From: Candidatus Gastranaerophilales bacterium
GTDB lineage: Bacteria; Cyanobacteriota; Vampirovibrionia; Gastranaerophilales; Gastranaerophilaceae
Direction of reading: 5' to 3'
Length of the DNA stretch: 58,270 nucleotides
Assembly: GCA_944327225.1 (NCBI GenBank)
Contig: CALVGZ010000013.1
Coordinates: forward strand, 1 to 58,270
Positions 6,553-27,646 of this stretch are shown here, piece by piece (positions within the stretch are counted from its first letter, which is position 1; each line of letters opens with the position of its first letter). Position numbers and translations under genes: made by a program. The notes beneath the pieces are model-generated. The model searched no databases, was not told where the DNA came from, and saw nothing but the letters and a program-made list of their open reading frames with translations.

Positions 6553-7215
6553 TTACTTATTTATATATTTTAAAATTAAAAAAACTTCTGCATAATCACA
6601 ACAAATGCTTGCACCGTTAAATGAGGCTTGTGCTTTAATTTTTTCTATACTTCTTGGCAGAGGATTATTTTGTATTTCGCTTTCATAAATTTTTATTATT
6701 TTTAATTTGTCATTCATAAAATCAGAAATATCATTAAAATAATTAGGTATAAATTTATCAAATAGAGAATAACTTGTTTCGGAAATTGTTTCATAACATA
6801 AAATTTGTTTTATAAAATTGTATCTGAATGTTTTAGTACAAGCTGATGCTGCTTCAAAAATAATCCTGTGATCCGAATGAATATCTCCATAAAACGGTAA
6901 ATAAATTATCTCTGGAGTTATTTCATTAAAAATACAAGAAAAATCCCTAATGAGTGATGAAACATCATTTTGTGTTAATTTTGCAGCAGGATAGTTTAAA
7001 CAAAAATATTTATCAAACTTATATTCTTTAGAAACAAGTTTTATTTGCTCTTGCCTTTTTTCAATAAATTCTTTCGAATATTTGCAAGAATTTATAACAT
7101 TTGTAACAAACACACAAAAAACCTTATCTCCTTTAGATTTATGTTTCAACAAAGTCCCGCCGCAGCCTAAAGTTTCGTCATCGGGATGAGGTGCGATTAC
7201 TACAATATTTTTCAT
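6553..7215 (-). CDS. PIG-L/LmbE family N-deacetylase
   Basis: A 220-residue zinc-dependent deacetylase of the PIG-L/LmbE family, which removes N-acetyl groups from GlcNAc-type sugars. The N-terminal metal motif is IAPHPDDETLGCGG, with His, Asp and Asp in the expected places, and the third ligand is in HSDHRII near residue 111. GGAAG precedes the ATG. It lies between the frameshifted formyltransferase gene and the nucleotidyltransferase gene. Classical legionaminate loci do not need a deacetylase, so it may expose an amine for formylation or another acyl change in a variant sugar. That role is an inference; LmbE proteins also act in cofactor and thiol pathways. Confidence 0.85.
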   Translation of the reverse strand: MKNIVVIAPHPDDETLGCGGTLLKHKSKGDKVFCVFVTNVINSCKYSKEFIEKRQEQIKLVSKEYKFDKYFCLNYPAAKLTQNDVSSLIRDFSCIFNEITPEIIYLPFYGDIHSDHRIIFEAASACTKTFRYNFIKQILCYETISETSYSLFDKFIPNYFNDISDFMNDKLKIIKIYESEIQNNPLPRSIEKIKAQASFNGASICCDYAEVFLILKYINK

Positions 7216-7276
7216 AAATATCTTCCAAACATTTATTAATTTATAATTTTACCAGACATCAATTATTTTAACATAT

Positions 7277-8159
7277 TTATAAATATTCTCCTATACTTGG
7301 CAATGTATCGAATTCATGTTCAACAAGATTAATCGCCCCATCAGGAGTTTTAACTGTTATTATATTATTTTTAACATTTATAATTTTACCATATTCAATG
7401 TTATCCAAATCGCACTTGGTAATTTCTGTTTTCCAAATTTTAATATTTTTATCTTTATATTTAATCTCAGCTCCGATATACGGTCCGGTTAATGCTCTTG
7501 TAAGATTATATATTGTTTCTGAATTCATCTTAAAATCTATAATTCCATCAATTTGATTTCTTTTTTTCCAAGTATTTGCTAAATTATGATTTTGAGGAAT
7601 TCTTTTATAGGTACCGTTTTTTAAATCAAAATAAAATTTGGAAACTTGTTTTTTAGCAATTTCAACAACTTTGTTATATAAAGTAAAAGCATCATCGTCA
7701 TGAGTTATTTCAAAAACTTCTTGCGATAAAATATCGCCGCTGTCCGCACCTTCATCCATAAAGAAAAATGTTGAAGCACTTTCTTTTAATCCCAATGCCA
7801 AAGCCCAAATTAAAGGATGACGACCTCTATTTTGCGGCAATTTAGCGGGATGAAATCCAATTATTCCGAGCGGACATAAATTTAGTAATTCTTTTTTAAT
7901 TAAACTTGACCAACCGAAACAAAAAATTACATCAGCTGATAAATCTTTAATCCATGATATGGTTTCTGGCGAATTAATATCTTTTGTATAGTGATAAGGA
8001 ATTGTATTTTCCTTGCATAGCGGAGTTAAATCGGCAAAATCAGAATTAAACTTTGAAAATTCTTTTGTAACAACACCTGCGATTTCAGCTTTAATATTAA
8101 TTAGACATTCAAGGATTTTTTTTTGAAAATTCTACTGTTCCGACAAATACTACTTTCAT
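7277..8159 (-). pseudogene. Sugar formyltransferase, frameshifted at an A9 run
   Basis: A formyltransferase-fold gene split by one base. Translation from ATG (8159) gives MKVVFVGTVEFSKK and then hits TGA just after nine A residues (T run 8116-8124 on the plus strand). Removing one A restores a continuous 293-residue protein: the second part contains GFHPAKLPQNRGRHP, DEGADSGDI and a normal C-terminus. The ATG shares one base with the stop of the preceding gene (TAATG), so the true start is clear. A product starting internally at TTG 7840 would lack the folate-binding N-terminus. Formyl donor would be N10-formyl-tetrahydrofolate. It may be a phase-variable or slippage-rescued gene, a fresh mutation, or a sequencing error. 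Confidence 0.85.
8116..8124 (-). repeat. Homopolymer A9 tract (coding strand) at frameshift
   Basis: Nine consecutive A residues on the coding strand, codon 12-15 of the formyltransferase. Eight would leave the gene in frame. Tracts like this are typical slipped-strand or transcriptional slippage sites. It is the longest homopolymer I noticed inside a gene of this window. Confidence 0.9.
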
Positions 8160-9283
8160 TATTTAACCTCTATATTATAAAATTCTTTGTTTAATATATT
8201 ATCCAAATTATAATTTTTTATTTTATTTAAAATATTAAGAGCAGTGTTTTCTTTTTTGTATGGATTAATTGTTTTTGAAAAATCCTCTATGTATATTTTA
8301 TTAATTGCAGACAGTATATCATTTTTTTGAGGATTACAATTTATAATTGAACTTGCCTGTTTTCTTCCTTTTTGCCTATTTCCAATATTTACTGTTGCAA
8401 TATTAAAAGATGGAGCTTCATATATTCCGCTTGATGAATTACCTACAACAGCATCAACATATTGCATAGCAGATAAATACCTCAACATTCCCAATGATTT
8501 ATAAACTTTAGCATTTTTATTTTTTTTCTCAAATTCAATAATTTGATTAAATATTTCTTCATTCCCGCTATCAGAATTAGGACAAGTAATAATAAAATTA
8601 GTATCTTTTAGCTCACTCAAAGCATCTAATAATTCTTTTATCTGCCCTTTGGTATCACCTTCTAGTGTTACAGGATGAAAAGTAATAAGTAAATTCTTTT
8701 TATTAAATTTAAAATCAAGGGATTTTTCAAGTTCATCTTTCTTTAATAAATCAATATATTTTATATTCTCTAGTGCCAACGCTCCAACATTAAACACCCT
8801 AGAAGGATTTTCTCCTAGTTGAATTACTCTTTTTTTAGATTGTTCACAAGATACAAAATGCAAATGACTCATTTTGGTTATAGAATGTCTTATAGCTTCA
8901 TCAATAGCCCCTTGCGTAGTATCTCCGCCATATAAATGCGCAATAGGAATATTATTTAACATTGCTGCTTGAGCTACACCCATAATTTCATATCTGTCAC
9001 CCAATAAAACAACAATATCAGGCTTTAATTCCCTAAAAGCACAACTGAATTTTTCAATAGTTAAAGCTAGAGAATGTGCTGGATGCGCTTCTATTTCAAT
9101 ATCAATTTCTTTATATATTTTTTGTTTAATTTCGTTTTTAGTTAAACCAAATTTTTCTGATAAATGCATGCCTGTAACAAACAAATAAAAATCAACATCA
9201 GAATCTTTATCAAGCAAATCAATTAATCTTGACATTATGCCGTATTCAGCTCTGGTTGAAGTTACAAGCGCTATTTTTCGCAT
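8159..9283 (-). CDS. Hydrolysing sugar-nucleotide 2-epimerase (LegG/NeuC type)
   Basis: A 374-residue enzyme that epimerises C2 of an activated GlcNAc derivative and releases the nucleotide, giving the free mannosamine-type sugar for condensation. Signature segments: KIALVTSTRAEYGIMSRLI at the start, LLGDRYEIMG near residue 95, HLYGGDTTQGAIDEAIRHS near residue 115, TFHPVTLEGD near residue 205 and VGNSSSGIYEAP near residue 280. These match NeuC/LegG. It overlaps the end of the synthase gene by 13 bases and ends one base into the formyltransferase start. In the legionaminate route the substrate is a 2,4-diamino-2,4,6-trideoxy sugar nucleotide. Confidence 0.92.
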   Translation of the reverse strand: MRKIALVTSTRAEYGIMSRLIDLLDKDSDVDFYLFVTGMHLSEKFGLTKNEIKQKIYKEIDIEIEAHPAHSLALTIEKFSCAFRELKPDIVVLLGDRYEIMGVAQAAMLNNIPIAHLYGGDTTQGAIDEAIRHSITKMSHLHFVSCEQSKKRVIQLGENPSRVFNVGALALENIKYIDLLKKDELEKSLDFKFNKKNLLITFHPVTLEGDTKGQIKELLDALSELKDTNFIITCPNSDSGNEEIFNQIIEFEKKNKNAKVYKSLGMLRYLSAMQYVDAVVGNSSSGIYEAPSFNIATVNIGNRQKGRKQASSIINCNPQKNDILSAINKIYIEDFSKTINPYKKENTALNILNKIKNYNLDNILNKEFYNIEVK

Positions 9284-10263
9284 ATTATTTCATCCTCTAA
9301 ATAATCTTTTGTAGCAATCTTGCCTATAATTTCATCCCATTTCATAGGTGAAATTCCATTTCCGGGGCGTTTTGCGGTTAAATTATTTTCAGTGAATATT
9401 TCGCCTTTTTTAATATCACATTTTGCAACTATTGATTTTCTTACTATTTCAATATTTGATATTTCACTCTTTTTAGGTTCTTTGATACCATTACCAAGAG
9501 CTTTTTCAATATTTCTTATTGATTTTACCATTTGAGCCAATTCATCAGGCTCTAAGCTCGCCTTATGGTCGGGTCCTTCCATATTTTTATCCAAAGTAAA
9601 ATGTTTTTCAATTATTTCAGCACCCATTGCAACTGCTGCAATTGGAATTTCTAACCCTTGCGTATGATCAGAATATCCAACAGGCAGATTAAATTCTTTT
9701 TTTAATGTTTCCATTGCTTTTAAATTAACATCTTCATAAGGTGTTGGATATTGAGTTGTGCAATGCAAAAGGGATACTTTGCAATCTTTTAAAACTTTAA
9801 GAGCATTTTTAATTTCTTCAAGATTTGCCATGCCTGTCGATAAAATAATATCTTTTTTAAATGAATTAATTTTTCTTAGATAAGGCAGATTAGTTATCTC
9901 ACCTGATGGAATTTTAAAAATTTCCATACCCAATGAATTTAAGAAATCGCAGCTTTCAAGGTCAAAAGGTGTAGATAAAAACATTACATTTTTGCTTTCG
10001 CAATATTTTTTTAATTCTATAAAATCATCTTTTTTCAATTCAAGTTTTTTAAGCATTTCTAATTGAGTTGAATTTTTTTTAAGATTTTCTTTTTGATATT
10101 GTGCCATTTGAGCATTTTTATTAACCAATTCTTCGCTCTTAAAAGTTTGAAATTTAGCACAATTACACCCTGATGAAGCAATAACATCAACCATTTTTTT
10201 AGCAAGCTCAACTGAACCATTATGATTTACACCGATTTCTGCTATTATAAATATATTTGCCAT
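9271..10263 (-). CDS. Nonulosonate synthase (LegI/NeuB type)
   Basis: A 330-residue enzyme that condenses phosphoenolpyruvate with the free 6-carbon amino sugar to make the 9-carbon acid. The NeuB barrel (about 1-250) shows IAEIGVNHNGSVELAKKM, KFQTFKSEELV, FSTPFD-type and GYSDHTQGLEIPIAAVAMGA with HFTLD following. Residues about 270-330 form the SAF/antifreeze-like lid (RKSIVAKCDIKKGEIFTENN). Lengths and order match LegI and NeuB. It follows a formyltransferase gene by 15 bases. The neighbouring LegB- and LegC-like genes favour legionaminate over sialate, but this enzyme's own substrate is not certain. Confidence 0.92.
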   Translation of the reverse strand: MANIFIIAEIGVNHNGSVELAKKMVDVIASSGCNCAKFQTFKSEELVNKNAQMAQYQKENLKKNSTQLEMLKKLELKKDDFIELKKYCESKNVMFLSTPFDLESCDFLNSLGMEIFKIPSGEITNLPYLRKINSFKKDIILSTGMANLEEIKNALKVLKDCKVSLLHCTTQYPTPYEDVNLKAMETLKKEFNLPVGYSDHTQGLEIPIAAVAMGAEIIEKHFTLDKNMEGPDHKASLEPDELAQMVKSIRNIEKALGNGIKEPKKSEISNIEIVRKSIVAKCDIKKGEIFTENNLTAKRPGNGISPMKWDEIIGKIATKDYLEDEIICEK

Positions 10264-10278
10264 CTTTCCTCGTTTTAA

Positions 10279-11157
10279 TTATTTTAATCTTGAACCAACA
10301 CAAAATTTACCGTTAAAATAATATTCAGTAACTCTTAATATCGAATCTTTTGTTTTAACTATAAAGCCATCATTATCTTTTTTCAATATTTGACCTTCTA
10401 TACCTTTGTAAATTGGTGCATTTTTTATCATTTCAGCTTTATTAATATAAAAAGGAATATTATTTATACTTGTTTTAGCCATAGGTCCTGGCTTTGATAT
10501 AGCACGTATAAAATTAAATAACTCTCTTGAAGTCTGATTCCAATTAATATATTCGTCGCCAACCATTCTTTTTCCGCAATACATCCCAACAGGATCAATA
10601 GTATCTTGCTTAATTCTTTTTGCTGTATTGTTTTTTATTTGAATTAATGCTTCATGCAACAAAAAGGCACACTCTTTATGCGCGAGCTCCAATAGTGTTG
10701 CGTAATTGTCATTATCTGTTATAGAAAATATTTTTTGTAAAATAATGTCACCTGTATCAATACCTTCATCAACATAATGAACAGTAATTCCGAACTCTTT
10801 TTCATCATTAATCAAGACCCAATTTAAAATATTACGTCCACGATACAATGGCAGTTTACCGGCATGGCAATTGATTACATGATACTTTGATAAAATAGGC
10901 GCTTTAAAAATTTGATTAAAAGACATAGAAACCAATATATCACAATTATATTTCTCGATTTGTTCCAAAAATTCTTCAGAATTAATATTTCTATTTTTTA
11001 TATAATCAATCGAGTTTTCATATGCAAAATTTTGTAGCGTTAAATCAGTTGTATCAAATCTAGGACATATAAATTTTATATTAAAATCTTTATCAGAATT
11101 AATTAATTTAAAAGCATTATGCCCCCATATACCATCAGCAAAATAACCTATATTCAT
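10279..11157 (-). CDS. Sugar N-formyltransferase
   Basis: A 292-residue formyltransferase-fold protein that should transfer formyl from N10-formyl-tetrahydrofolate to an amine. The catalytic segment VINCHAGKLPLYRGRN carries the family Asn and His near residues 106-108, and the aspartate lies in VDEGIDTGDIIL about 36 residues later. The C-terminal half (about 200-292) matches the small OB-like domain of ArnA/Fmt-type enzymes. It overlaps the aminotransferase gene by 4 bases (ATGA), the tightest coupling in the operon, so the 4-amino sugar made by that enzyme is the obvious substrate. I saw no LegH-type acetyltransferase in this operon, so N-formyl may replace N-acetyl. The link to this substrate is inferred. 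Confidence 0.85.
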   Translation of the reverse strand: MNIGYFADGIWGHNAFKLINSDKDFNIKFICPRFDTTDLTLQNFAYENSIDYIKNRNINSEEFLEQIEKYNCDILVSMSFNQIFKAPILSKYHVINCHAGKLPLYRGRNILNWVLINDEKEFGITVHYVDEGIDTGDIILQKIFSITDNDNYATLLELAHKECAFLLHEALIQIKNNTAKRIKQDTIDPVGMYCGKRMVGDEYINWNQTSRELFNFIRAISKPGPMAKTSINNIPFYINKAEMIKNAPIYKGIEGQILKKDNDGFIVKTKDSILRVTEYYFNGKFCVGSRLK

Positions 11158-12242
11158 AATTTAACTCCGCTCGGGATATTAACTAACCTTTCTTCAATCC
11201 ATTTAGCATTTGATAAATCACCGCATTCGCAATTTTTAAACATTTCAAGCTCGTTCATCAAACACCAACAAGGTCTTGTCATAACATTATTATCATTTGT
11301 ATATTTCAAAAATTCATCTCTTTGAGCTCTGTTTTCTAACATTATTGCTTGAAGCCAATAGTTAGAACGGGCGTTTTTTGGTTCTTTTACAAAACTATCA
11401 CCAAAAAATGCTTCATATTTTTTTGCTAGTTCTCTTTTCTTTTCTAAAAATTTATTTAATTTTTCAAACTGAGCCAAGCCAAGTGCAGCATTAATATTAG
11501 GCATTCTATAATTATAGCCTGTTTCAGAATGTCTAAATTCCCATCTATGAGGAATTTTTGCTTGAGTTGTTAAATGTTTTGCATAATCAGCCAATTTTTC
11601 ATCATTAAATAGCAGCATTCCACCACCGCCTGTTGTAATTATTTTATTACCATTAAAACTTATAGCGCTTCCCTCTGCCCAATTGCCGGTATGAGTACCT
11701 TTATATAAACTTCCAAGGCTTTCTGCACAATCTTCGACAAGTTTTACATTGTATTTATCACAAACTCGTTTAATTTCATCAATTCTGCAGGGATGTCCAA
11801 ATGTATGCATAGGCACAACCGCTTTTATGTCATTATGTTTTTTAAGATAATCTTCAAGTTTTTCAGGGCTTAAACCGAGAGTATCTCTGTCGACATCTAC
11901 AAAAACAGGTTCAGCATTACAATATCTAATAGCATTAGCTGTTGCAATAAATGTTAAAGGCTGAGTTATAACTTTATCACCTTCTTTAACACCTGCTAAT
12001 TTTAAGCCTAAATGAAGTGCATTAGTACCATTAACACAAGCAACAGCTCTTTTAACTTTACAAAAAGATGCAATTTTTTCTTCAAATTCCGTTACGAACT
12101 TACCAACGCTTGAAACAAAAGTTGAATCAATGCATTCGGCAGTCATTTCTTTTTCTCGATTATCAAAAAACGGCTCGTGAAGTGCTATAAAATCTTCAGT
12201 GTTATAAATTTTTCTTATAAAGTCAACGGTTCCTTTGTACAT
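11154..12242 (-). CDS. PLP-dependent sugar aminotransferase (LegC type)
   Basis: A 362-residue DegT/DnrJ/EryC1 aminotransferase that should put an amine on C4 of a 4-keto-6-deoxy sugar nucleotide. Family segments in order: IALHEPFFDNREKEM near residue 18, STFVSSVGKFVTEFE near residue 40, ACVNGTNALHLGLKL near residue 67, VEDCAESLGSLYKG near residue 167, and SFNGNKIITTGGGGML near residue 190 with the PLP lysine. This N-terminal pattern is typical of LegC. It overlaps the amidotransferase gene by 28 bases and the formyltransferase gene by 4 bases. Confidence 0.9.
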   Translation of the reverse strand: MYKGTVDFIRKIYNTEDFIALHEPFFDNREKEMTAECIDSTFVSSVGKFVTEFEEKIASFCKVKRAVACVNGTNALHLGLKLAGVKEGDKVITQPLTFIATANAIRYCNAEPVFVDVDRDTLGLSPEKLEDYLKKHNDIKAVVPMHTFGHPCRIDEIKRVCDKYNVKLVEDCAESLGSLYKGTHTGNWAEGSAISFNGNKIITTGGGGMLLFNDEKLADYAKHLTTQAKIPHRWEFRHSETGYNYRMPNINAALGLAQFEKLNKFLEKKRELAKKYEAFFGDSFVKEPKNARSNYWLQAIMLENRAQRDEFLKYTNDNNVMTRPCWCLMNELEMFKNCECGDLSNAKWIEERLVNIPSGVKL

Positions 12243-13356
12243 TCACTCTCCCAGATTGGATTTTTGAGTCTCCAGCTACCTCTTACCTTTTCAAAATAAT
12301 CCTTATTATATAATTTGTCAATGATTGACCAAAATTCTTCTTTAGTATAACCTAAAAATTCACAAAAATCTCTAACGCACAATGGATCTAAATACGCATC
12401 ATGGTGTCTTACAAGTTCAATTGCTTCATCTCTTGTAATTAGACCATATCTTACCATTCTTGAAGCATAATCTGTCGCAAATTGGTGAGCAAATTTAGGA
12501 TATTTTAGCCAAGAATGAACAAGATAAGCTCTTGAATCTACTTGGTCAAAATCTTCAATATGATGAGACCTTCTCCATTCATCTTCTAAATCTTTAAATC
12601 CAAATTTTTTTGCTACTTCATAATTTTTAAAACTATCCCAAGGAATAAAATATGAAATATATATAGGATCAATCTCATCTAATTCTTTTTCGGATAGTGC
12701 AACCGTTAATTCAAGTTCTTTTCTTGAAACTCCAGTATTTTTGATTAATTCATCTAAATCCATGTCGGATGCTACACCGTTTTTTAATATACCTCTTGCT
12801 GAATATGTGTCAAAACTATCACTTCCGCCATATTCATAGCTAACATTTTCACCGTATACCAAAAGCGGAGTATTGAATTTTTTAGCCATTAATAAAGGAT
12901 ATGTATAAATTAATCTATCAATATACCAAGTGGGTTTTCCGTATTTTTCGAAAGTGTATCTCATTATTTTTTTTGAGCTCTGATGTTCGGTTTTAGAGAA
13001 ATTACATCGCAACCAAAAGCCTCTGATATATTTTTAATATTGTGTTTGCTGGCTTCAGTCATCGGGAAATTATCTTCAACAGAAAATAATATTGGATTCA
13101 TTCCTAATTTATTTTTCATTAAATCAACTTGATAATGTGAATCTTTTCCACCGGAAACGGCAATAGCACAATCATAACTGTTTCCGTTAGAGCCTCTGTA
13201 TTTATCGCATAAAGCTTCTAATTCTTTGTATCTTTTATCCCAATCTATGGTTTTTCTTTTTTCGTAGGTTTGGCAAGCAGAACAAACCCCGTTACTGCCA
13301 AACACTATTCCTGGTCTTGAGTTTGGCATAACGCACTTTTTGCAGTATTTAATCAT
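12215..13356 (-). pseudogene. N-acetyl-sugar amidotransferase, frameshifted at an A8 run
   Basis: A PP-loop amidotransferase of the WbpG/PseA/Cj1324 family, which turns an acetamido into an acetamidino group. The first frame (13356-12964, 130 aa) has a zinc-type N-terminus (CKKCVMPNSRPG, CSAC) and the ATP-binding AVSGGKDSHYQ, then stops directly after eight A residues. The second frame (from 13012) continues with MRYTFEKYGKPTWYIDRLIY and the rest of the family to 12215. Adding one A would give one normal 380-residue protein. Partners HisH/HisF-like ammonia suppliers are not in the window. As with the formyltransferase at 8159, phase variation, slippage, decay or read error are possible. Confidence 0.85.
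12967..12974 (-). repeat. Homopolymer A8 tract (coding strand) at frameshift
   Basis: Eight A residues on the coding strand immediately before the premature TAA of the amidotransferase. Nine would join the two frames. It is the second such tract in the operon. Confidence 0.9.
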
Positions 13357-13364
13357 TTTTTCTC

Positions 13365-14354
13365 CTATAAGTTATAAATATTTGGTTTATATTTTTTGAG
13401 GTTATTTATATCTTTGAACCATTCAACGGTTTCTTTTAAACCTTCTTCAATAGTGTATTTTGGTTTAAAGCCCGTTAATTTTTGAATTTTTGTATTATCG
13501 CACCACAAGCGGTTAACTTCAGAATTTTTAGGTCTTATACGTTGACTATCAACGACAAATTCAACGTCACTATTCATTATTTTTTTAATTAATTCCAATG
13601 TATCTTTCATTGAAATTTCATAATTTGAACCTATATTAATTTCTTCACCGTTAATATTTTCACAATTTGCAATTTTAACAAAGCCTTCGCAAGTATCTTT
13701 AACATAATTAAAATCTCTTGTAGGGGTTAAATCGCCTAATTTTATTTCTTTTTTACCTGATGCAATTTGAGTAATAATTGTAGGTATAATTGCTCTTGCC
13801 GATTGCCTTGGCCCGTAAGTATTAAAAGGACGAGCTATAACAACAGGCAATTCAAATGCGTTATAAAAACTTTTTGCAATAGCATCAGCACCGATTTTTG
13901 TTGCACTATATGGCGATTGGGGTTGTTTCGGATGATTTTCATCAATAGGAACATATTTTGCCGTTCCATATACTTCACTTGTTGAAGTTATTATTGTTTT
14001 TGAAACATTATTATCTTTTGCAGCCTGGCAAACATTCAATGTACCTTTGATATTGGTATCTATATAACTATCCGGAGCAACGTAAGAATAAGGTATCGCA
14101 ATTAAAGCCGCAAGATGAAAAATTATATCAACTCCTTTAGTAATTTCTCTGATATAATTAGGGTCTCTCACATCACCGGATAAAATTTCAATGTCATCTT
14201 TGCAATCAACATCTTCAAGCCAGCCCCAATTATTAAACGAATTATATTGAGATAAAGCTTTAACAATAGCTCCTTCTTTAGCTAATCTTTCGGTCAAATG
14301 AGAACCTATAAAACCATCTGCACCTGTAATTAAAACTTTTTTATTTTTTAACAT
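13365..14354 (-). CDS. NAD-dependent sugar-nucleotide 4,6-dehydratase (LegB type)
   Basis: A 329-residue extended SDR enzyme that should convert an activated GlcNAc to the 4-keto-6-deoxy intermediate, the first committed step. The NAD loop is VLITGADGFIGSHL near residue 6; the catalytic Thr/Ser and Tyr-Lys are in ITSTSEVYG near residue 125 and SPYSATKIGAD near residue 150; ARPFNTYGPRQSARA and LGDLTPTRDFNYV follow. These are typical of LegB-type dehydratases. It is the first gene of the nonulosonate operon, about 93 bases behind the predicted transcription start. UDP- or GDP-sugar specificity is undetermined; the PtmE-like gene suggests GDP. Confidence 0.9.
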   Translation of the reverse strand: MLKNKKVLITGADGFIGSHLTERLAKEGAIVKALSQYNSFNNWGWLEDVDCKDDIEILSGDVRDPNYIREITKGVDIIFHLAALIAIPYSYVAPDSYIDTNIKGTLNVCQAAKDNNVSKTIITSTSEVYGTAKYVPIDENHPKQPQSPYSATKIGADAIAKSFYNAFELPVVIARPFNTYGPRQSARAIIPTIITQIASGKKEIKLGDLTPTRDFNYVKDTCEGFVKIANCENINGEEINIGSNYEISMKDTLELIKKIMNSDVEFVVDSQRIRPKNSEVNRLWCDNTKIQKLTGFKPKYTIEEGLKETVEWFKDINNLKKYKPNIYNL

Positions 14355-14453
14355 CTTTTCAACTTCCCAATTTTATTATCAAAATGTGTTAGCAAAAACT
14401 CAATATTACTTTATAACTTGGTATCACTGTTTATTTCCATATCTTTTCGTTTC

Positions 14454-14482
14454 ATTATATCACCAATTTACCTATACAACAA
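14454..14482 (-). promoter_or_regulatory. Promoter of the nonulosonate operon
   Basis: On the minus strand TTGTTG (14482-14477), a 17-base spacer and TATAAT (14459-14454, with TGA before it) form a strong housekeeping-type promoter. It lies in the 182-base gap that separates the two glycan operons and would start a transcript near 14447. The rest of the gap is AT-rich with no other feature I can support. Confidence 0.7.
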
Positions 14483-14536
14483 TTATCTCATATAACTACC
14501 TTACTATTATCTAAATGTATAATTTTAATTATTTTT

Positions 14537-15166
14537 TTAACATCTTTCCCATTCTTTTGTTTCAAAATTGTATCTTTTGACAACTCTTGCAGGATTGCCG
14601 ACAGCAACGGAATAGCTGGGAATATCTTTTGTTACAACACTTCCTCCGCCTATAATGCAATGATTACCTATTTTTACTCCCGCAAGAATAATTACATTAT
14701 CTCCAATCCAGCCGTTATCACCAATTATAATATCTTTTGAAGTATTTCCCTGAAATTTAACAGGTTGAGAAATATCAGAATAATTATGATTAGAAGCAAG
14801 GATTTTTATATAACTTGCAAGAAGAGCACCATTTCCAATTGTTATATTTCCCCCTCCAACAATTACGTTATCGTGGCCAATACAACAATTGTCACCAATA
14901 ATAATTTTATTTTCAGGGTAACTTGCAATAATTTGGTTGTTTTCACCGATATCTGTTCCTCTGCCTATGATGCATCCATCTTTAACTTTGGCAAATATTT
15001 TAGTATTTTTATCAATTTTATTTCCGCCTAATAATTTTGTATTTTTAATTTTTGCAAAAATACTTATTTTATTTCGTTTAAACTTGTTTCTATCATAAGT
15101 ATAAGAAAAACCTAATATTTTTATTGTTCTTAGTTGACCATCTTTTACTTTTTCAAAAAATTTCAT
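14537..15166 (-). CDS. Hexapeptide-repeat O-acetyltransferase (WbbJ-like)
   Basis: A 209-residue left-handed beta-helix acyltransferase, probably acetylating a sugar hydroxyl with acetyl-CoA. Imperfect hexapeptide repeats run from about residue 45 to 190 (IIGDNCCIGHDNVIVGGG, ITIGNGALLASY, IIIGDNGWIGDNVIILAG, IGNHCIIGGGSVV). The catalytic His lies in LASNHNYSD near residue 135, and the family ending SYSVAVGNPARVVKRY is present. The N-terminal 40 residues are not typical. It lacks the N-terminal Rossmann domain of PglD/LegH N-acetyltransferases, so it is unlikely to be the missing legionaminate N-acetyltransferase. It is the last gene of the second glycan operon. Confidence 0.8.
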   Translation of the reverse strand: MKFFEKVKDGQLRTIKILGFSYTYDRNKFKRNKISIFAKIKNTKLLGGNKIDKNTKIFAKVKDGCIIGRGTDIGENNQIIASYPENKIIIGDNCCIGHDNVIVGGGNITIGNGALLASYIKILASNHNYSDISQPVKFQGNTSKDIIIGDNGWIGDNVIILAGVKIGNHCIIGGGSVVTKDIPSYSVAVGNPARVVKRYNFETKEWERC

Positions 15167-15206: not shown

Positions 15207-16586
15207 TTATTTTCTTAATTTCAATCCTAAAAATTCTCCTTCGTTATGAGATTTTGCATGGTAATATTTATAATTATCCCCATAAACTTCATTATAATAT
15301 CCGTAAGGATATGCTTCTTCTTTTGGTTTTGGTGTTAAATTTTTATTATCTATTAATTTATACAATTCTTCCATTGAGTGTGCATTATAAACACAATCGA
15401 AATCATCATAAGGAGCTTTTCCTGCTAAAATTGATACCTTGCCCCAATAAGTTGCTTCGCAGCCTATTGTTGAAAATGAAGTTATAACTTTAGATGCAGC
15501 TTCAATTAAAGCATAAGTATCGATTTTTTCGTCAGGTTCAATTACAGTTAAATTTTTATATAATTTTTTAAATTCGTTTATTTCTCTAATTTGAGTAGCT
15601 TTTTTCTTTTTTGCTTTGGTTAAATTAGGATGAATTCTTAAATAAAAATGTTTTGTTTCATCATTTTTATAGTGTTCAAATAAATTTTTCAAAATTTCAT
15701 TTTCATTTTTTGCAAACGGATGTTTCCAGCTATCAAAAGCATAAACCTCATCAATGGATGAATTAAAGAAAACAATATTTTCCTTGGTCTCATCCCAATT
15801 TTTAGGTAAAGAATCTTTTATTTGGTCTTTTGTATAAGATTCTAGTGCTTGAAATTTTCCTGCACGTCTATCTTTGAACCATTTGTTTGCTAATTCGATT
15901 TTATTTTCATCATCTTTTTGCCAATACTCGCTTACTTCCTTTCTCCAATTGTTGAAATCATGAGGAACACTGCCTATTATTGTTCTTAATTTATTTATGT
16001 TTGCTCCTCTTTCATATACCACATAAGGAATATTATGTCTTTTTGCAAAGGAAACAGCAGGGTATAGAGACGGCATTCTTCCGTTAAAAGTATGGATTTC
16101 ATCAAATTTTATTTCATTATGAAACTTTTCAATATTTTTTAATATTATATATTCTGTTTCAAAAAATTTTTTAATATCTTTATTCCATTTTTTAATATCA
16201 AAGTCATAATCTCTTGTTAAAGTCATTATGCAACTTATAGGGCCAAGTCCTAAATTATAACCTTCGATTTCATAATTTATCGCATCTTGTATTGTCGTAA
16301 AATTTGGAAATTTTGGACATTTTATTTTTTCCATTTTTAAAATTTTAGCCGAGCTAATTCCTGCAATATTTGCGATTTTTTGACAAACTTTATTACATTT
16401 ATTGCAATACCCGATATGATTTCTACGATTTAAACCGCACCATCCTTTTATTTTGTTATTGCAATCTAGTATGTAAATTTCATTTTCTTTATTTTCAAGC
16501 AGTCGCTTTAAAACTTCACCAACCAACCCCCACTTAAATGGTGAACGTGAATGCCCATATACATATAATATTTTCTTGCTATTCAT
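15207..16586 (-). CDS. Capsule-type polysaccharide biosynthesis protein
   Basis: A 459-residue soluble protein, probably a glycosyltransferase of the capsule polysaccharide biosynthesis (GT-B-like) class. The C-terminal half has KHFYLRIHPNLTKAKKK near residue 310, then KIDTYALIEAASKVITSFSTIGCEATYWGK, the usual donor-binding end of this class. The N-terminal region contains a CGLNRRNHIGYCNKCNKVC cluster near residues 50-70, as found in related surface-glycan transferases. It overlaps the fusion gene by 8 bases, so translation is coupled. Donor and linkage are unknown. Confidence 0.7.
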   Translation of the reverse strand: MNSKKILYVYGHSRSPFKWGLVGEVLKRLLENKENEIYILDCNNKIKGWCGLNRRNHIGYCNKCNKVCQKIANIAGISSAKILKMEKIKCPKFPNFTTIQDAINYEIEGYNLGLGPISCIMTLTRDYDFDIKKWNKDIKKFFETEYIILKNIEKFHNEIKFDEIHTFNGRMPSLYPAVSFAKRHNIPYVVYERGANINKLRTIIGSVPHDFNNWRKEVSEYWQKDDENKIELANKWFKDRRAGKFQALESYTKDQIKDSLPKNWDETKENIVFFNSSIDEVYAFDSWKHPFAKNENEILKNLFEHYKNDETKHFYLRIHPNLTKAKKKKATQIREINEFKKLYKNLTVIEPDEKIDTYALIEAASKVITSFSTIGCEATYWGKVSILAGKAPYDDFDCVYNAHSMEELYKLIDNKNLTPKPKEEAYPYGYYNEVYGDNYKYYHAKSHNEGEFLGLKLRK

Positions 16587-19563
16587 TTATATCTCCCTTT
16601 AATTCAAGATTTTTATCAATATTTAACATATAAGATTCTCTCTTTTTATTATATTTCGTAGGTTTTACTAAAGTTTTATTTCCTTTGATTGCGTATTTCA
16701 TAGGAACTTTTTTTATAAGAATAAGTTCTGATTTTATTTTTTCAAAAAATTCTTCACCCTTTTTATTGTTTATAAGCAATAGTGATGTTCCTTTTTTATC
16801 ATCTAATTTTTTTTCAAATTTCTGAATTTTCCAAAAGTCACCAATCGTTATATCTCCTTGTCTTGGTATTTTTTGAAATTTACATGAAAAACAGGATTTT
16901 CTTAATGAAAAATTTTTTAAAAAAGCCCTCATAAATGAATTTTTGCTACTTTCAATATAATATTCATTTGAATTTGTCTTAAGTGAAAATAGTAACTCAG
17001 AAGACCATCCTTGTTTCTTACTTCTAAAATTAATTGACAATATTTTTTCATTTTTATCAACAATTGTATCTAAAAATTTTTTAAAAACTTTATAAGATGG
17101 AACTCCATGACAAACAATATCAACTACAATTAAATTTTTATAGTCCTTTTTAAGATAGCAGTTCAAACCTGCAACTTGACAAGGAGTACCAACAAATAAG
17201 ACTTTTTTATCCTCATTTAATAATTTTTTAATTTCTTGATATACATTTAAAGTATTACTTTGATAATATTTTGAACCTTTGAAACTATCGAGGTCTTTTT
17301 CGTTATCTGAAATTTTATGAACAATTTTCCATTCTTCGTCATATACCGCACCAACTATATAACCCCCATTTTTTATGAAATTATCCATCATCACATAGGA
17401 CGCACCACCAGAGGAGGATGTATATCTTACTTCATTATTTGCCATTACTGCGTAGCAAGTTGGCGTTTTTTTATTTTTATTGTTGCATATATTATTTGGA
17501 CAAGTCTTTTTACATAAATTGCAATTTGTGCAAAGGGCAGAATCCACAACAGGATACAAGAAACCTTCAAAATTTTCTTTCATTGTAATGGCATTATTTG
17601 GGCAAACATTATAGCAAGCAGAACAACCCGAACAATTATCCGTAATAAAATTTTTTCTTTTTGTTTTTAGCTCGTATTCTAATGTATTCAAAGCTTCTTT
17701 TTTCAATTCAGCAATTTTATTGTTGATTTTTTCCCAATTTAAATTCTGAAAATCGTTTTTGATTAACTCGCTTGCTTCCTCGAAAATAGGTAATTCTTTA
17801 TCGATTAATTGTTTTAATGTTTCAAACCTTGTTTTTCCTCTTTTATTGTTACTTAAAGCTAAAAATGGTTTATTAAAAAGAATAGCAAAACAAACGCCAT
17901 GATATGAATCTGTTATTATATATTTTGCCTCAATAAAGCATTTTAGCCAAGTTTCAACAGAAACACCACTATTTGCTAAATTAATAATCTTTTTTTTATT
18001 TTTTAATTGCAGACCATTTAAACAATCATCTAAAATTTTATTTTTGTCTAAAATATATGAAACTATTTTATCTTTACAATCTATATAGCTTGAATTTTTT
18101 GCCAACTTTATAAAAATATTTTTATCTGCTAAAAACACGGGGTCTAATACTTGCTCTGCATATATCTCAAAATTATTTTTGCAAATTTCAACACCCGATA
18201 GTTCCCTTGAAGACACAAAATCAAAACCTTTTAGTTCTTTTTTGATTTTATTGATGGTTTTTTTATATTTCTTTTCTTGTTCCAAGTTGTCAATTCCAAA
18301 ACTTGCACTTAGTGCAATCTTTTTAACATTTTTATTTGTAAATTTAAGCAAAAAAATGTCTGCATAATTCTTTTTTGATAAATATTTAGGTCGCAAAACT
18401 TGATCTGAACCAGATATAAAATTTTTCGCTCTTTTTCCTGCTTCTTTTAAGGAATTAAACTTAGGCATTAATTTTAAAAATCTATTAGCAAATTTTTTGC
18501 TAAATGAAGTTTTATATTTATTTTTTATATTAAATTCATTGACAAAAGCCGGTTTTAAACCAAAAGATTTTATAATTTCTTGCAGGGCATAAGCAGTCAA
18601 ACAAGCTCCATAGTTTTGAGTGAAATAAAAATTAACTATCCCTACATCATAAAATTGTTTTGGGTATTTATTTTTGGTAAAGTACTTTTTTCTAATATCT
18701 CTTAAGGTATATTTTATTAAATTTTTCGGCAATCTATCAATATATTCTTGGTAAATATCAGGAACCCATTTTCTTTGCCACGGTTTTCCAAGCTTTCCTG
18801 CATAATGTATTATAGTAGGATTATTTTTAGCAATAATTAACTCCTCATCAGAATACATAGTCTTTAATTTTTTATATTCAGGTATATCTTTTATATTTGT
18901 ATATTCATACAATGTTTCAAATGCACAATAATTAAGTGGCAATTCTTTGATTTTTGTATATGTTAAATTAAAAACATCCATATCGAAATATATAAGTCTT
19001 TTGTTAAAAATTTTGATAGTTTCAAAAATTTTTTTAACTAAATTTTCTTCTGAAGCTTTTTTATTATTAAAAATAATGAAACCAGAAACAAAGTTTAATT
19101 TATTTTTATTCTCTTTAAAGTATCTTTCAGGTTGCAATTCTTTTAGACATTCTACTGTGCAAGTTGGCACTGCTGCCGCCTCATAATTATCAAGGTTTGT
19201 ATTGAATACTTCTTCTAAATCCCCCCTAAATAAAACATCAACATCAGAATAAATAACTTTATCGTATTCTTTTAAGATTTCGGGGATTAACAATCGATAA
19301 TAGACAATTTCTGTCCAAGACCCTTTATTTTTAGGTGTGTTTTTAAATATATCGGGATTAATATAATGAAAAGCGATGTTGTGTCTTGTGTTTTCTGCTA
19401 ATTTAGAGATATTCATTTGGTCTTTTAGATTGATATCGGAATGAAGTATTCTAATATCATAAGTTGTGGTATTTTTAGCACAATCAATCAAACTTTTAAT
19501 TGCAACGGACGCTCCTAAAATTATTCTTGAATCGAAACAAAAAACAACAGGAATATTAGTCAT
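16579..19563 (-). CDS. Three-enzyme fusion: GT8, pyruvyltransferase, FrhB-like
   Basis: A single 994-residue protein with three complete domains. Residues 1-270 are a GT8 retaining glycosyltransferase (CFDSRIILGASVAIKSL, metal motif YSDVDVLF at 105-112, HYAGKLGKPW near 253). Residues 304-620 are a polysaccharide pyruvyltransferase-family domain (FYFTQNYGACLTAYALQ, ISGSDQV at 383-389, DSYHGVCFA near 552). Residues 640-994 are an FrhB-type domain with two 4Fe-4S clusters (CSGCSACYNVCP at 643-655, CTNCNLCKKTCP at 678-689), SSGG and GTPCQVAGL. The last two are often adjacent genes in capsule loci; adding GT8 in one chain is unusual. It overlaps both neighbours by 8 bases. The fusion suggests one enzyme adding and decorating a sugar, which is an inference. 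Confidence 0.88.
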   Translation of the reverse strand: MTNIPVVFCFDSRIILGASVAIKSLIDCAKNTTTYDIRILHSDINLKDQMNISKLAENTRHNIAFHYINPDIFKNTPKNKGSWTEIVYYRLLIPEILKEYDKVIYSDVDVLFRGDLEEVFNTNLDNYEAAAVPTCTVECLKELQPERYFKENKNKLNFVSGFIIFNNKKASEENLVKKIFETIKIFNKRLIYFDMDVFNLTYTKIKELPLNYCAFETLYEYTNIKDIPEYKKLKTMYSDEELIIAKNNPTIIHYAGKLGKPWQRKWVPDIYQEYIDRLPKNLIKYTLRDIRKKYFTKNKYPKQFYDVGIVNFYFTQNYGACLTAYALQEIIKSFGLKPAFVNEFNIKNKYKTSFSKKFANRFLKLMPKFNSLKEAGKRAKNFISGSDQVLRPKYLSKKNYADIFLLKFTNKNVKKIALSASFGIDNLEQEKKYKKTINKIKKELKGFDFVSSRELSGVEICKNNFEIYAEQVLDPVFLADKNIFIKLAKNSSYIDCKDKIVSYILDKNKILDDCLNGLQLKNKKKIINLANSGVSVETWLKCFIEAKYIITDSYHGVCFAILFNKPFLALSNNKRGKTRFETLKQLIDKELPIFEEASELIKNDFQNLNWEKINNKIAELKKEALNTLEYELKTKRKNFITDNCSGCSACYNVCPNNAITMKENFEGFLYPVVDSALCTNCNLCKKTCPNNICNNKNKKTPTCYAVMANNEVRYTSSSGGASYVMMDNFIKNGGYIVGAVYDEEWKIVHKISDNEKDLDSFKGSKYYQSNTLNVYQEIKKLLNEDKKVLFVGTPCQVAGLNCYLKKDYKNLIVVDIVCHGVPSYKVFKKFLDTIVDKNEKILSINFRSKKQGWSSELLFSLKTNSNEYYIESSKNSFMRAFLKNFSLRKSCFSCKFQKIPRQGDITIGDFWKIQKFEKKLDDKKGTSLLLINNKKGEEFFEKIKSELILIKKVPMKYAIKGNKTLVKPTKYNKKRESYMLNIDKNLELKGDINE

Positions 19564-20689
19564 TAATTAATCCTCTTAAATTATCTAGCGAACGATTGTA
19601 AAAATCATTGGTGTATACTTTTAAATTTTCTTGTAATTTTAAATATTCATCCTGCGACATATTTATAGCTTTTTCCATTGCAAGAGGATATTCATTGTCT
19701 TTATTGTATAAAATTGAGTTGTTATCGCCAAAGCCATTGATAGGTGCAAAGCTATCTAAAATTATACAAGGTTTTAAAAAACCATAAACAAGTTGAAAAT
19801 TTCCGCTTGTTCCTGTTGTATTATATCTTTGATGAGCGGGATTATCAGCGTTATATGATGTTAGCATAAAATCAGCTTTTTCAATTTCATCATACATTTT
19901 ATCAAAAGGTAATCTGCCTTTTATATCTATATAGGGTCTTAATTCCTTATCAAATGCTTTCAAAGTACCCTTTCCAATAACCGTTACTTTAAAATTTTTA
20001 TAGCCTTTTTTGTATAATTCTTCAATAGAATTTATGATTTGCTCATTATTTTTTCTTTTATCTCTTATAGCACCAACTGTTACAAAGTTTGTTATATCTT
20101 GGTTTTTGGGAGTGATTTTTATTTCACCAAAATAATGAGGATTAATTACAATCGATTTTGCACCTTTGTAATTTAGCTCTCTAAGAGTAATTAGGTTGTC
20201 TTTCCAAATTCCTTTATCAACAGCATATTTTGCTTCATGTTCAACAAAGAATATTTTTGATTTATCAACATTTTGGTTAAAAGTATTGTAGATTTCATCA
20301 TAATTAACTTCATCATATAACTTTCCAACTGTAGTAACCAAAAGTCCTTTGACATTTGATAAATCAGAATTTTTAAAATATTTTCTTATTTGTTTTTGAC
20401 TTAATTTATTAAATGAAATATTTTCGTTATTATTAAATCTTGAAAATAAGCCTTCTTTATATCTATCGGGAGTAATCAAAACACTAACGTGATATCCTAA
20501 ATCCAATAAATATTTACAAAAGCCGGGGACAACTTCAGCATGGCTTTTTGAGCATGGCTCCCAAACTAAAAAAGTGTTTTCTTTAATAATGGGTATCCTT
20601 TCTTTAAAAATTGAAAATAAATTTAAAAGTTTATATATTTTATAACCTTTTATTTTATCTTCTATTAAAGAAAATATATTTTTATTCAT
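19556..20689 (-). CDS. GT-B glycosyltransferase (GT1/GT4-like)
   Basis: A 377-residue glycosyltransferase of GT-B type. The N-terminal domain includes FLVWEPCSKSHAEVVPGFCKYLLDLGYHV, the usual start of a GT-B acceptor domain. Near residue 178 TNFVTVGAIRDKRKNNEQIINSIEEL starts the donor domain, followed by VTVIGKGTLKAFDKELRPYI, KGRLPFDKMYDEIEKADFML and a final NTTGTSGNFQLVYGFLKPCII. These fit GT4-like enzymes, although the key EX7E motif is not clear. It overlaps the fusion gene by 8 bases and starts 5 bases after the LeuC-family gene. Substrates are unknown. Confidence 0.75.
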   Translation of the reverse strand: MNKNIFSLIEDKIKGYKIYKLLNLFSIFKERIPIIKENTFLVWEPCSKSHAEVVPGFCKYLLDLGYHVSVLITPDRYKEGLFSRFNNNENISFNKLSQKQIRKYFKNSDLSNVKGLLVTTVGKLYDEVNYDEIYNTFNQNVDKSKIFFVEHEAKYAVDKGIWKDNLITLRELNYKGAKSIVINPHYFGEIKITPKNQDITNFVTVGAIRDKRKNNEQIINSIEELYKKGYKNFKVTVIGKGTLKAFDKELRPYIDIKGRLPFDKMYDEIEKADFMLTSYNADNPAHQRYNTTGTSGNFQLVYGFLKPCIILDSFAPINGFGDNNSILYNKDNEYPLAMEKAINMSQDEYLKLQENLKVYTNDFYNRSLDNLRGLIND

Positions 20690-20694
20690 TTTAA

Positions 20695-21942
20695 TTAATC
20701 CCAGTCATTATTACAAATGTATCCGGCTATTGCTGATTTTGCCGCTGTATAGGGGCTTGAAAGATATATAAATCCGTTTGTGTTTCCCATACGTCCTTGA
20801 AAATTTCTGTTTTGGGTTGTAAGGCAAATTTCCCCGTCTCCTAAAATTCCGCCATGAACTCCAACGCAAGGTCCGCAACCCGCAGGAATTAAATTAGCTC
20901 CAGCATTTAAAAATATTTCCAACAGCCCTTCTTTTGCAGCTTGGATATAGATTTCTTTACTTGCAGGAGCAATAATAAGCCTTACATTTGGTGCTACTTG
21001 TTTATTTTTTAGTACATTAGCTGCAATCCTTAAATCTTCAATTCTGCCATTGGTACAAGTTCCTATAAATACTTGATTTATTTTAATTTTTTCTAATTTA
21101 GAAATTTCTTTAACGTTATCGACTGTATGCGGGCATGCTACCATGGGTTCAATCATTGAAGCATCAATTTTAATAATTTTTTCGTAAATGGCATCATCAT
21201 CCATCTTAATTTCTTTATATTTGTCGCCTCTGCCTCTTGAAATTAAGTATTTTTTTGTTTTTTCATCCGTTTCAAAAAGTCCTGCTTTTGCACCTGCCTC
21301 AACTGCCATATTTGCCAACGTAAAACGTTCAGACATTTTCATATTTTTAATTGTTTCACCGCAAAATTCTAATGCTTTATAGGTAGCTCCATCTGCTCCG
21401 ATTAAGCCAATTAGATATAACATTAAATCTTTAGCATATACGTTTTCTTTAAATTTTCCGTTGACTTCGATTTTAAATGATTCCGGAACCTTAAACCAGG
21501 TTTTTCCAAAGGCCATCGAAACGGCAATATCGGTTGAGCCCATGCCGGTTGCAAACGCACCCAATGCACCTGATGTACAAGTATGAGAGTCTGCTCCAAC
21601 AAGAATTTCACCGGGATTTACAAAGTCTTCAACTAATCTTTGGTGGCAAACCCCGCAGCCTATGTCTGATAAAACGGCACCATATTCATTTGCAAAATCG
21701 CGTATTATATTGTGAGCATTTGATAGTTCTTTTCTTGGAGAAGGTGCAGCATGGTCAATAAAAAGAATTGTTCTTTTTGGATTAAATAATTTTTTATTTA
21801 ATTTTTTAAACTCTTTAATAGCTAATGGACCGGTGCCATCTTGAGTGGCACAAACATCAATATTTGCTACAATTAGTTCTTTAAATTTTACATTATGCCC
21901 TGCGTGAGATGATAATATTTTTTGAGCTAAAGTTTGTCCCAT
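20695..21942 (-). CDS. Aconitase-superfamily dehydratase large subunit (LeuC/HACN type), copy 1
   Basis: A 415-residue 4Fe-4S hydro-lyase large subunit of the isopropylmalate/homoaconitate (HACN) type. Cluster and active-site segments: ADSHTCTSGALGAFATGMGSTD near residue 117, VFIGTCTNGRIEDLRIAA near residue 290 and GCGPCVGVHGGI near residue 355, giving the three cluster cysteines, then NRNFQGRMGNT and IYLSSPYTAAKSA. Length matches the family. It needs a small LeuD-like subunit, which is not in the window. It is the first gene of a glycan operon, 5 bases before a glycosyltransferase gene, an odd place for a leucine gene. A second copy lies at 26357-27646. Substrate could be isopropylmalate or a related 2-hydroxy acid. 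Confidence 0.85.
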   Translation of the reverse strand: MGQTLAQKILSSHAGHNVKFKELIVANIDVCATQDGTGPLAIKEFKKLNKKLFNPKRTILFIDHAAPSPRKELSNAHNIIRDFANEYGAVLSDIGCGVCHQRLVEDFVNPGEILVGADSHTCTSGALGAFATGMGSTDIAVSMAFGKTWFKVPESFKIEVNGKFKENVYAKDLMLYLIGLIGADGATYKALEFCGETIKNMKMSERFTLANMAVEAGAKAGLFETDEKTKKYLISRGRGDKYKEIKMDDDAIYEKIIKIDASMIEPMVACPHTVDNVKEISKLEKIKINQVFIGTCTNGRIEDLRIAANVLKNKQVAPNVRLIIAPASKEIYIQAAKEGLLEIFLNAGANLIPAGCGPCVGVHGGILGDGEICLTTQNRNFQGRMGNTNGFIYLSSPYTAAKSAIAGYICNNDWD

Positions 21943-26356: not shown

Positions 26357-27646
26357 TTATAACTCCTCGGGACTTCCAATTCTTCCTAAGACAGCACTTG
26401 CTGCTGCTATATATGGACTTGCTAAATATATTTTTGAATTAACATGCCCCATGCGTCCGACAAAATTTCTGTTTGTTGTGGATATACAAATTTCACCTTC
26501 GGCCAATATACCGCAATGACCGCCAAGACAAGGGCCACAGGTTGGGGTTGAAATAGCTGCTCCTGCTTTAATTAATGTTTGATAATAACCCAGTTCTATT
26601 GATTTTAATATTATTTCTTGTGTAGCGGGAAAAATAATCAAACGGACATCGGGATGCACTTTTCTATTTTTCAGGATTTCCGCTGCTGCTTTTATATCTT
26701 CTAATCTTCCGTTCGTGCAGCTCCCGATTATAGCTTGATCTATTTTAATATTGTCCTTGATTGCTTCATTTATTGAATGAGTATTTTCCGGCAAATGAGG
26801 ATAAGCGACTGTCGGTTCTATTTTTGATACATCATATTCAATTATACGTTCATATATAGCATCTTTATCACTTTTTAAAATAATCGGTTTTCTGATATAA
26901 TTTGCTTCAGGAAAACTATTAATATAATCCATAGTGGTATCATCCGGTTCTATAATTCCGTTTTTAGCCCCAGCTTCGATTGCCATATTACATATAGTAA
27001 AACGTCCGTCCATATCCATAGATTTAATTGTATCGCCACAAAATTCAAGTGTTTTGTATAAAGCACCATCAACACCAATATCACCTATTAAATGTAAAAT
27101 TAAATCTTTGGCCGTAACGTATTTTTTAAGTTTTCCGTAAAATATTACCTTAATGGCAGAGGGAATTTTAAACCAAGTAGAACCAGAAGCCATGGCACAA
27201 CCAAGGTCAGTTGAGCCTACTCCTGTTGAAAAAGCACCCAACGCCCCATAAGTACAAGTATGTGAGTCTGCACCAATAATCAAGTCTCCGGCTGTTACTA
27301 TTCCTTTTTCAGGTAATAAAGCATGCTCTATTCCCATTGTGCCAACATCAAATTTATGGGTTAAATTTTTTGATTTAATGAAGTCTCTTAATATTTTTGC
27401 TTGTTGTGCCGATTTGATATCTTTATTTGGTACGAAATGATCGGGTATTAGTACAACACCTGCCTTATTAAATACATTTTTGGTACCGATTTTATTAAAA
27501 ACATCTATTGCAATGGGGCCTGTTATATCGTTTGCAAGTGTAATATCTATTTTTGCTTCAATCAAATCACCCGCTTTAACATATTCTTTGCCGCAATGAA
27601 GTGCAAAAATTTTTTCCGTAATTGTCATTGGGTGATTGGTTTGCAT
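26357..27646 (-). CDS. Aconitase-superfamily dehydratase large subunit (LeuC/HACN type), copy 2
   Basis: A 429-residue paralogue of the protein at 20695. It shows VGTMGIEHALLPEKG near residue 100, GADSHTCTYGALGAFSTGVG near residue 128, AIIGSCTNGRLEDIKAAAEI near residue 302 and the cysteine pair in TPTCGPCLGGHCGIL near residue 368, then NRNFVGRMGHVNSKIYLASP. The HALLPEKG segment resembles bona fide LeuC enzymes more than copy 1 does. No LeuD-like small subunit is nearby. AAGGA precedes the ATG. It follows the 61-residue protein gene by 1 base and is followed at once by PBP4. One copy probably serves leucine synthesis; the other's substrate is open. Confidence 0.85.
   Translation of the reverse strand: MQTNHPMTITEKIFALHCGKEYVKAGDLIEAKIDITLANDITGPIAIDVFNKIGTKNVFNKAGVVLIPDHFVPNKDIKSAQQAKILRDFIKSKNLTHKFDVGTMGIEHALLPEKGIVTAGDLIIGADSHTCTYGALGAFSTGVGSTDLGCAMASGSTWFKIPSAIKVIFYGKLKKYVTAKDLILHLIGDIGVDGALYKTLEFCGDTIKSMDMDGRFTICNMAIEAGAKNGIIEPDDTTMDYINSFPEANYIRKPIILKSDKDAIYERIIEYDVSKIEPTVAYPHLPENTHSINEAIKDNIKIDQAIIGSCTNGRLEDIKAAAEILKNRKVHPDVRLIIFPATQEIILKSIELGYYQTLIKAGAAISTPTCGPCLGGHCGILAEGEICISTTNRNFVGRMGHVNSKIYLASPYIAAASAVLGRIGSPEEL

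Follow-up and report, generated by a model that had tools for sequence, protein, structure and literature searches.

The window analysed here is a stretch of 58,270 nucleotides from a Candidatus Gastranaerophilales bacterium (contig CALVGZ010000013.1), and at 16579-19563 it carries a single 994-codon open reading frame (ORF) that joins a glycosyltransferase family 8 (GT8) domain, a polysaccharide pyruvyltransferase (PSPT) domain, two ferredoxin-type [4Fe-4S] motifs and an FrhB-like flavin/iron-sulfur reductase in one chain. We propose that this protein probably builds a sugar with a lactyl (1-carboxyethyl) ether into a surface glycan, through GT8 transfer, enolpyruvyl transfer by a serine-type (S-type) PSPT and reduction by the FrhB domain. 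The observed basis of this proposal is the domain content, the conserved residues of the phosphoenolpyruvate (PEP) site, the PSPT subfamily, the swapping of reductase partners and the presence of the PSPT-FrhB pair in the E. coli O124/O164 locus.

In the first step, suggested by the GT8 domain, a hexose would be moved from a nucleotide sugar onto a growing, probably lipid-linked, glycan. The PSPT domain would then add enolpyruvate from PEP to a hydroxyl of the newly added sugar, giving an enol ether with no ketal closure. Finally, the two [4Fe-4S] clusters would relay electrons to the flavin/Fe-S domain of FrhB type, where the enolpyruvyl double bond would be reduced to an (R)- or (S)-1-carboxyethyl group; the two ferredoxin motifs of the fusion suggest ferredoxin as the electron source. 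MurA and MurB build the lactyl ether of muramic acid by comparable chemistry, enolpyruvyl transfer followed by flavin reduction. The window protein would follow this logic with unrelated enzymes, a PSPT-fold transferase and an FrhB reductase, and with a glycosyltransferase on the same chain; the Pfam search found no MurA or MurB domain in the fusion. The sequence-only reading had expected successive steps on one glycan that end in a redox step. This expectation is supported, though that the fusion itself means successive steps is something we infer.

Authenticity, architecture and rarity of the fusion

The gene had been placed at its exact coordinates by the sequence-only reading; it lies on the minus strand, and the plus strand is stop-rich over the same interval. 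The same ORF was found at 99% identity in a second Gastranaerophilales metagenome-assembled genome (MAG; L004, also G130). Furthermore, a Lentisphaeria MAG from roe deer caecum (L005) encodes a 1009-aa protein of identical architecture, which aligns over its full length at 57% identity (GT8 63%, PSPT 54%, Fer4 plus FrhB 60%) and in which the GT8-PSPT linker is also conserved (59%). Because the twin and the Lentisphaeria homologue agree to this extent, linkers included, the fusion is not an assembly artefact, and the readings as a chance ORF or a chimera were ruled out. In the Pfam profile search, all core domains exceeded their cut-offs. The features of the fusion are as follows.

16579..19563, minus strand: GT8-PSPT-2x[4Fe-4S]-FrhB fusion ORF, 994 aa (ORF and Pfam; 99% twin in L004, 57% full-length homologue in L005)
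18772..19548, minus strand: GT8 domain, residues 6-264 (PF01501, E 1.9e-38, 132.9 bits against a cut-off of 24.3)
19237..19245, minus strand: GT8 DxD metal motif, D107-V-D109 (from sequence; invariant in alignment A1)
17845..18615, minus strand: PSPT domain (PS_pyruv_trans), residues 317-573, serine-type subfamily (PF04230, E 1.3e-24, 88 bits against 25.3; in one clade with the E. coli O124 PSPT)
17896..17910, minus strand: PSPT D-S-Y-H-G motif, residues 552-556 (S553 replaces the arginine of ketal enzymes, Pvg1 R337 and CsaB R306; H555 retained)
18205..18207, minus strand: R453, counterpart of the PEP-binding CsaB R148 (by alignment; kept in 28/28 S-type and 80/80 R-type PSPTs)
17488..17637, minus strand: two ferredoxin-type [4Fe-4S] motifs, residues 643-692 (PF12838, E 4.5e-10, and motifs)
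17242..17454, minus strand: FrhB/FdhB N-terminal domain (FrhB_N), residues 704-774 (PF04422, E 1.8e-5)
16723..17208, minus strand: FrhB/FdhB C-terminal domain (FrhB_C), residues 786-947 (PF04432, E 2.1e-27, 96.3 bits against 23.3)

With its PF01501 match above the cut-off and its DxD motif, the first domain belongs to the GT8 glycosyltransferases. Its closest solved structures are WbbM (6u4b; best PDB match, E 1e-20) and LgtC (1g9r, 1ga8); WbbM likewise holds a GT8 in a multidomain glycan enzyme but has neither a PSPT nor a reductase. The Fer4 pair spans residues 635-692 in Pfam, with two CxxCxxCxxxC clusters at residues 644 and 678, and the FrhB part contains GTPCQ at 792 and a late CxxC at 891. 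Three domains in one 994-residue chain, as first read, were thus borne out by Pfam, and the motifs are intact except in the PSPT domain, which has D-S-Y-H instead of R-x-H. An AlphaFold model of the fusion, built on a 3-row alignment only, had a mean predicted local distance difference test score (pLDDT) of 36.8 and a predicted template modelling score (pTM) of 0.27, values too low for interpretation.

The triple fusion is rare, while the PSPT+FrhB pair is widespread. Among 286 genomes of the order, the full architecture occurs only in the window's genome (G000) and its twin, with one candidate truncated by a contig end (G052), and it occurs in 1 of 197 genomes of the class of the Lentisphaeria MAG; the view that the triple architecture is common was therefore rejected. 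Common in the order are separate GT8 proteins, unfused PSPT and FrhB genes that lie side by side, and FrhB-PSPT fusions of reverse order (~720-870 aa), so that the earlier remark that PSPT-like and FrhB-like proteins are frequent neighbours holds. Scans of a viral contig collection found no relatives. Two records filed as phages carry homologues: MT837642.1 (human fecal) has PSPT-FrhB homologues, and OR846590.1 (Enterococcus phage Efs 1-1-1) has a PSPT homologue.

Serine-type pyruvyltransferases and their reductase partners

In Pvg1p, R337 and H339 of the R-L-H motif contact the modelled PEP (PMC6801904), and the PEP site of CsaB includes R148, R306, H308 and K328, of which R148, H308 and K328 were tested by mutation (PMC10435577). 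The genome's second PSPT (342 aa, CsaB-like) and E. coli WcaK both read T-R-L-H at this motif, compared with D-S-Y-H in the fusion, and pairwise comparison of the fusion PSPT with either protein gave no significant similarity. Every PSPT match in 59 genomes of the phylum was then collected, and the motif column of each sequence was read. All eight Gastranaerophilales PSPTs that lie beside or are fused to FrhB, the fusion included, read S-[FY]-H, compared with R-x-H in nearly all of the ~82 others (one F variant and three A variants). In a tree of these PSPTs with plasmid and enterobacterial relatives, calculated with the motif columns excluded, 28 S-type PSPTs still formed one clade (28 of its 29 tips), the sole intruder being an odd variant (L051). 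All 28 keep the equivalents of R148 and H308, have serine in place of R306, and mostly have R or K at the K328 position; since the first two are kept and the K328 position is mostly basic, PEP use by S-type PSPTs, with an altered site, stays plausible.

The sequence-only reading had named a ketal as a possible product. As an alternative, the PSPT domain would indeed close a pyruvate ketal of the usual kind, and FrhB would carry out an independent redox reaction on the same sugar or a neighbouring one. Like CsaB, WcaK and Pvg1p, the fusion PSPT matches PF04230 and retains the PEP-site arginine (R148 equivalent) and histidine, and two R-type PSPTs likewise adjoin FrhB. However, its S553-Y-H555 departs from the R-x-H of these ketal enzymes at R306/R337, it falls in a distinct clade with a reductase partner in most loci, and the pairwise comparisons above separate it from the CsaB-like PSPT and WcaK. 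Moreover, MurB-like enzymes are among the partners of this PSPT clade, and lactyl ethers, with no ketal reported, are found in O124/O164 and in Klebsiella K22/K37. We consider a ketal unlikely. A clade without the PEP-site arginine of ketal enzymes, paired with interchangeable flavoreductases, points instead to a lactyl (1-carboxyethyl) ether.

The partners of S-type PSPTs were read from gene neighbourhoods after a plasmid search with the O124 PSPT as query. Three kinds of flavoreductase were found: FrhB-like (Klebsiella aerogenes p35_D, B. finegoldii L161 and a 1018-aa Marinibacterium fusion), nitroreductase-like (E. coli p30COLEC-2, L. plantarum pL11623-1, Allorhizobium and an 849-aa Paracoccus alcaliphilus fusion) and MurB-like (Cetobacterium, Novosphingobium, the haloarchaeon Natrinema and an 845-aa Paracoccus aestuarii fusion). 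The stand-alone MurB-like partners match MurB models at E ~1e-49 to 1e-51, below the equivalog cut-off. The tree places PSPTs with unlike partners as sisters in three cases: Allorhizobium (nitroreductase) with Novosphingobium (MurB-like) at support 1.0, Paracoccus (nitroreductase) with Marinibacterium (FrhB) at 1.0, and the E. coli plasmid (nitroreductase) with Klebsiella (FrhB) at 0.94. Because unrelated flavoreductases replace one another while the transferase stays the same, a common reaction is suggested, and MurB is known to turn an enolpyruvyl ether into a lactyl ether by reduction. In the phylum sample, where positions were compared by eye, all eight S-type PSPTs adjoin a reductase, compared with at least 2 of ~82 others (G302:C11 with FrhB and G290:C43 with a nitroreductase; Fisher p 6e-10), and no R-type PSPT lies within ~2 kb of MurB. 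The fusion PSPT thus belongs to a subfamily that we define here as serine-type PSPTs with a flavoreductase; its defining features are the clade, the S-[FYL]-H motif and a fused or adjacent reductase.

Two observations stand beside these pairs. On the plasmid of Natrinema pellirubrum (L167), a haloarchaeon without peptidoglycan, the MurB-like protein lies beside a serine-type PSPT. Small E. coli plasmids (L044 pBDSF8-3_3, L038 and L043) carry chopped flippase-reductase-PSPT-glycosyltransferase cassettes among insertion sequence elements, and one such plasmid holds both the FrhB and the nitroreductase version.

We also considered that the three domains act on unrelated glycans and that the fusion merely secures their co-expression. 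Within the order, GT8, PSPT and FrhB are indeed also encoded by individual genes that neighbour one another, and in one locus (L143) a GT8-PSPT fragment has unfused PSPT and FrhB genes on its upstream side. Nevertheless, fusions exist in both orders (FrhB-PSPT in Gastranaerophilales, PSPT-FrhB in the window protein and Marinibacterium), PSPTs are repeatedly paired with reductases, which come in three folds, and the triple is retained across two phyla with each domain 53-63% identical, which makes action on unrelated glycans quite improbable.

As to the reductase itself, the family name and the FrhB Pfam match, with its FrhB_C domain, would speak for an F420-dependent enzyme of the FrhB/FpoF/FdhB kind. 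However, the F420 ligase PF01996, which matched in the methanogen and haloarchaeal controls, is absent from all 98 genomes of the order that were searched, the window's own included, and host F420 synthesis is thus not indicated. The fusion also falls far short of the NCBIfam F420 equivalog cut-offs (FpoF, 35 of 475 bits; subunit F, 38 of 444). F420 dependence is hardly credible, and we rejected it on the absent ligase. FrhB-family enzymes that work without F420 include the chlorophyll reductases HCAR and BciB, with ferredoxin-linked flavin/Fe-S reduction; BciB reduces a C=C bond. The window FrhB would share such ferredoxin-linked reduction on a different substrate. The ~20 other FrhBs in the phylum sample all lie in larger cyanobacterial genomes, away from PSPTs, and are presumably BciB.

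The O124/O164 locus and other lactyl-ether glycans

If S-type pairs make lactyl ethers, they are expected in organisms with such sugars, and E. coli O124/O164 was named beforehand as an example. The O124/O164 O-antigen carries 4-O-(1-carboxyethyl)glucose, in O124 as 4-O-[(R)-1-carboxyethyl]-D-glucose. For Shigella dysenteriae, this residue is listed in PMC10609480. The O124/O164 locus reads galF, 'O124/O164 family' wzx, FrhB, PSPT, GT2, GT32 and 'O124/O164 family' wzy. By blastn, the O124 FrhB-PSPT pair matched 8 of 5,426 E. coli genomes, with full matches in five chromosomes and partial matches on three plasmids, and all five chromosomal matches are O124/O164, as predicted. Neither the window FrhB nor the Klebsiella FrhB-PSPT pair found a blastn match in E. 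coli; the O124 locus was reached only through DNA of an E. coli plasmid. The O124 PSPT is 29% identical to the fusion PSPT over ~375 aa (E 6e-41) and lies in the same clade; its locus resembles the window in the adjacent FrhB and the glycosyltransferases beside it but differs in keeping separate genes.

Two further groups of glycans are correlations. In a survey of Klebsiella capsule loci, four types without pyruvylation, K8, K22, K37 and K66, have PSPT genes, and the whole set contains two nitroreductases and one 'coenzyme F420 hydrogenase' (PMC4616057). The K22 glycan contains 4-O-[(S)-1-carboxyethyl]-D-glucuronic acid, according to a title cited in PMC3857182, and K37 has the same sugars as K22 (PMC7246685). 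In E. faecalis, the capsule bears lactic-acid-substituted Galf and its locus contains the MurB-family gene cpsG (PMC2766626, PMC3060912).

The PSPT and the reductase could also attach a different reduced acid, such as 2,4-dihydroxypentanoic acid or another hydroxy acid in ether linkage, or the PSPT donor could be other than PEP. A PEP-contacting arginine is replaced by serine, and some O-antigens are known to carry ethers of 2,4-dihydroxypentanoic acid (PMC10609480). Nevertheless, the R148 and H308 equivalents are kept in all S-type PSPTs and the O124 link fits lactate, so this alternative is rather unlikely, if a little less so than a ketal.

Several points weigh against the proposed lactyl-ether route. 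Identity between the O124 FrhB and that of the fusion is only 23%, and O124-type FrhBs carry one N-terminal CxxCxxC...C set compared with two in the fusion. Of the 5 O124/O164 genomes (L042 and L045 are loci of this group), which may be clonal, 3 have the PSPT gene annotated in two pieces and 2 have it intact. The tie between FrhB+PSPT and a lactyl ether is a single serogroup pair, O124/O164. The accessible text of the Klebsiella survey assigns the nitroreductase and F420 genes to no K type (PMC4616057). The pairing is not exclusive either: the two R-type PSPTs beside FrhB (G302:C11 and B. finegoldii L046) and one beside a nitroreductase, among the matches listed (G290:C43), share it. The former, R-M-H PSPTs (L142, which is G302:C11, and L046), make up another class of pair, for which the hypothesis offers no explanation. 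Conversely, no reductase was found within ~4 kb of three S-type loci (R. albus L162, L. plantarum L163 and P. liaowanqingii L156). With these points weighed, we still lean, by a modest degree, towards S-type PSPTs with any of three unrelated flavoreductases as a general route to lactyl-ether sugars on the surface glycans of bacteria and archaea; its reductase would have been replaced repeatedly, and the window protein would pack all three steps into one chain.

Locus context and significance

The genes flanking the fusion overlap it on both sides:

19556..20689, minus strand: upstream GT4-like glycosyltransferase (weak Glyco_trans_1_4 matches; 8-base overlap with the fusion; synteny in L004, L005 and L143)
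15207..16586, minus strand: downstream 459-aa protein (weak Epimerase_2/Capsule_synth resemblance; 8-base overlap with the fusion)

The three-gene cassette (15207-20594) is 96.4% identical in the twin MAG and everything beyond it differs. A homologue of the upstream gene also precedes the fusion in two other genomes, the Lentisphaeria MAG and G052, the contig of the latter ending within the fusion. Because of the twin and Lentisphaeria homologues, the conserved cassette with differing flanks and the retained upstream homologue, the fusion and its flanking genes are a real, movable gene set and no artefact. Downstream lies a legionaminic-acid-type cluster with LegB, LegC, NeuB, NeuC, a PseF-like cytidylyltransferase and formyltransferases, and the region, judged by this gene content, is therefore a surface-glycan locus. 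The cluster spans 3143-15166 (minus strand). Of two formyltransferases in it, one (10279-11157) is complete and the other (7277-7840) shortened, which hints that the nonulosonate is N-formylated. An N-acetyl sugar amidotransferase (WbuX family) is split into overlapping ORFs, 12215-13012 and 12964-13356 (minus strand), which cover profile positions 2-129 and 123-343; the cause is a frameshift, either a genomic one or one introduced by assembly. Two large-subunit genes of the aconitase/isopropylmalate-dehydratase type, 20695-21942 and 26357-27646 (minus strand), lie ~5 kb apart.

In the open literature, we found no earlier proposal of a route by serine-type PSPT and reductase; subscription reviews of Shigella and E. 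coli O-antigens were outside this scope, and an earlier suggestion there is possible. Lactic-acid ethers decorate the O-antigens, capsules and exopolysaccharides of many bacteria, and our search of the open literature turned up no account of their biosynthesis. The rare fusion leads to a specific assignment, a recognisable PSPT subfamily with a swappable flavoreductase. If true, many glycan-locus genes now annotated as 'pyruvyltransferase' or 'coenzyme F420 hydrogenase' would need correction, and the assignment would make lactyl-ether antigens predictable from genomes and explain the F420-family genes in capsule loci of organisms without F420.

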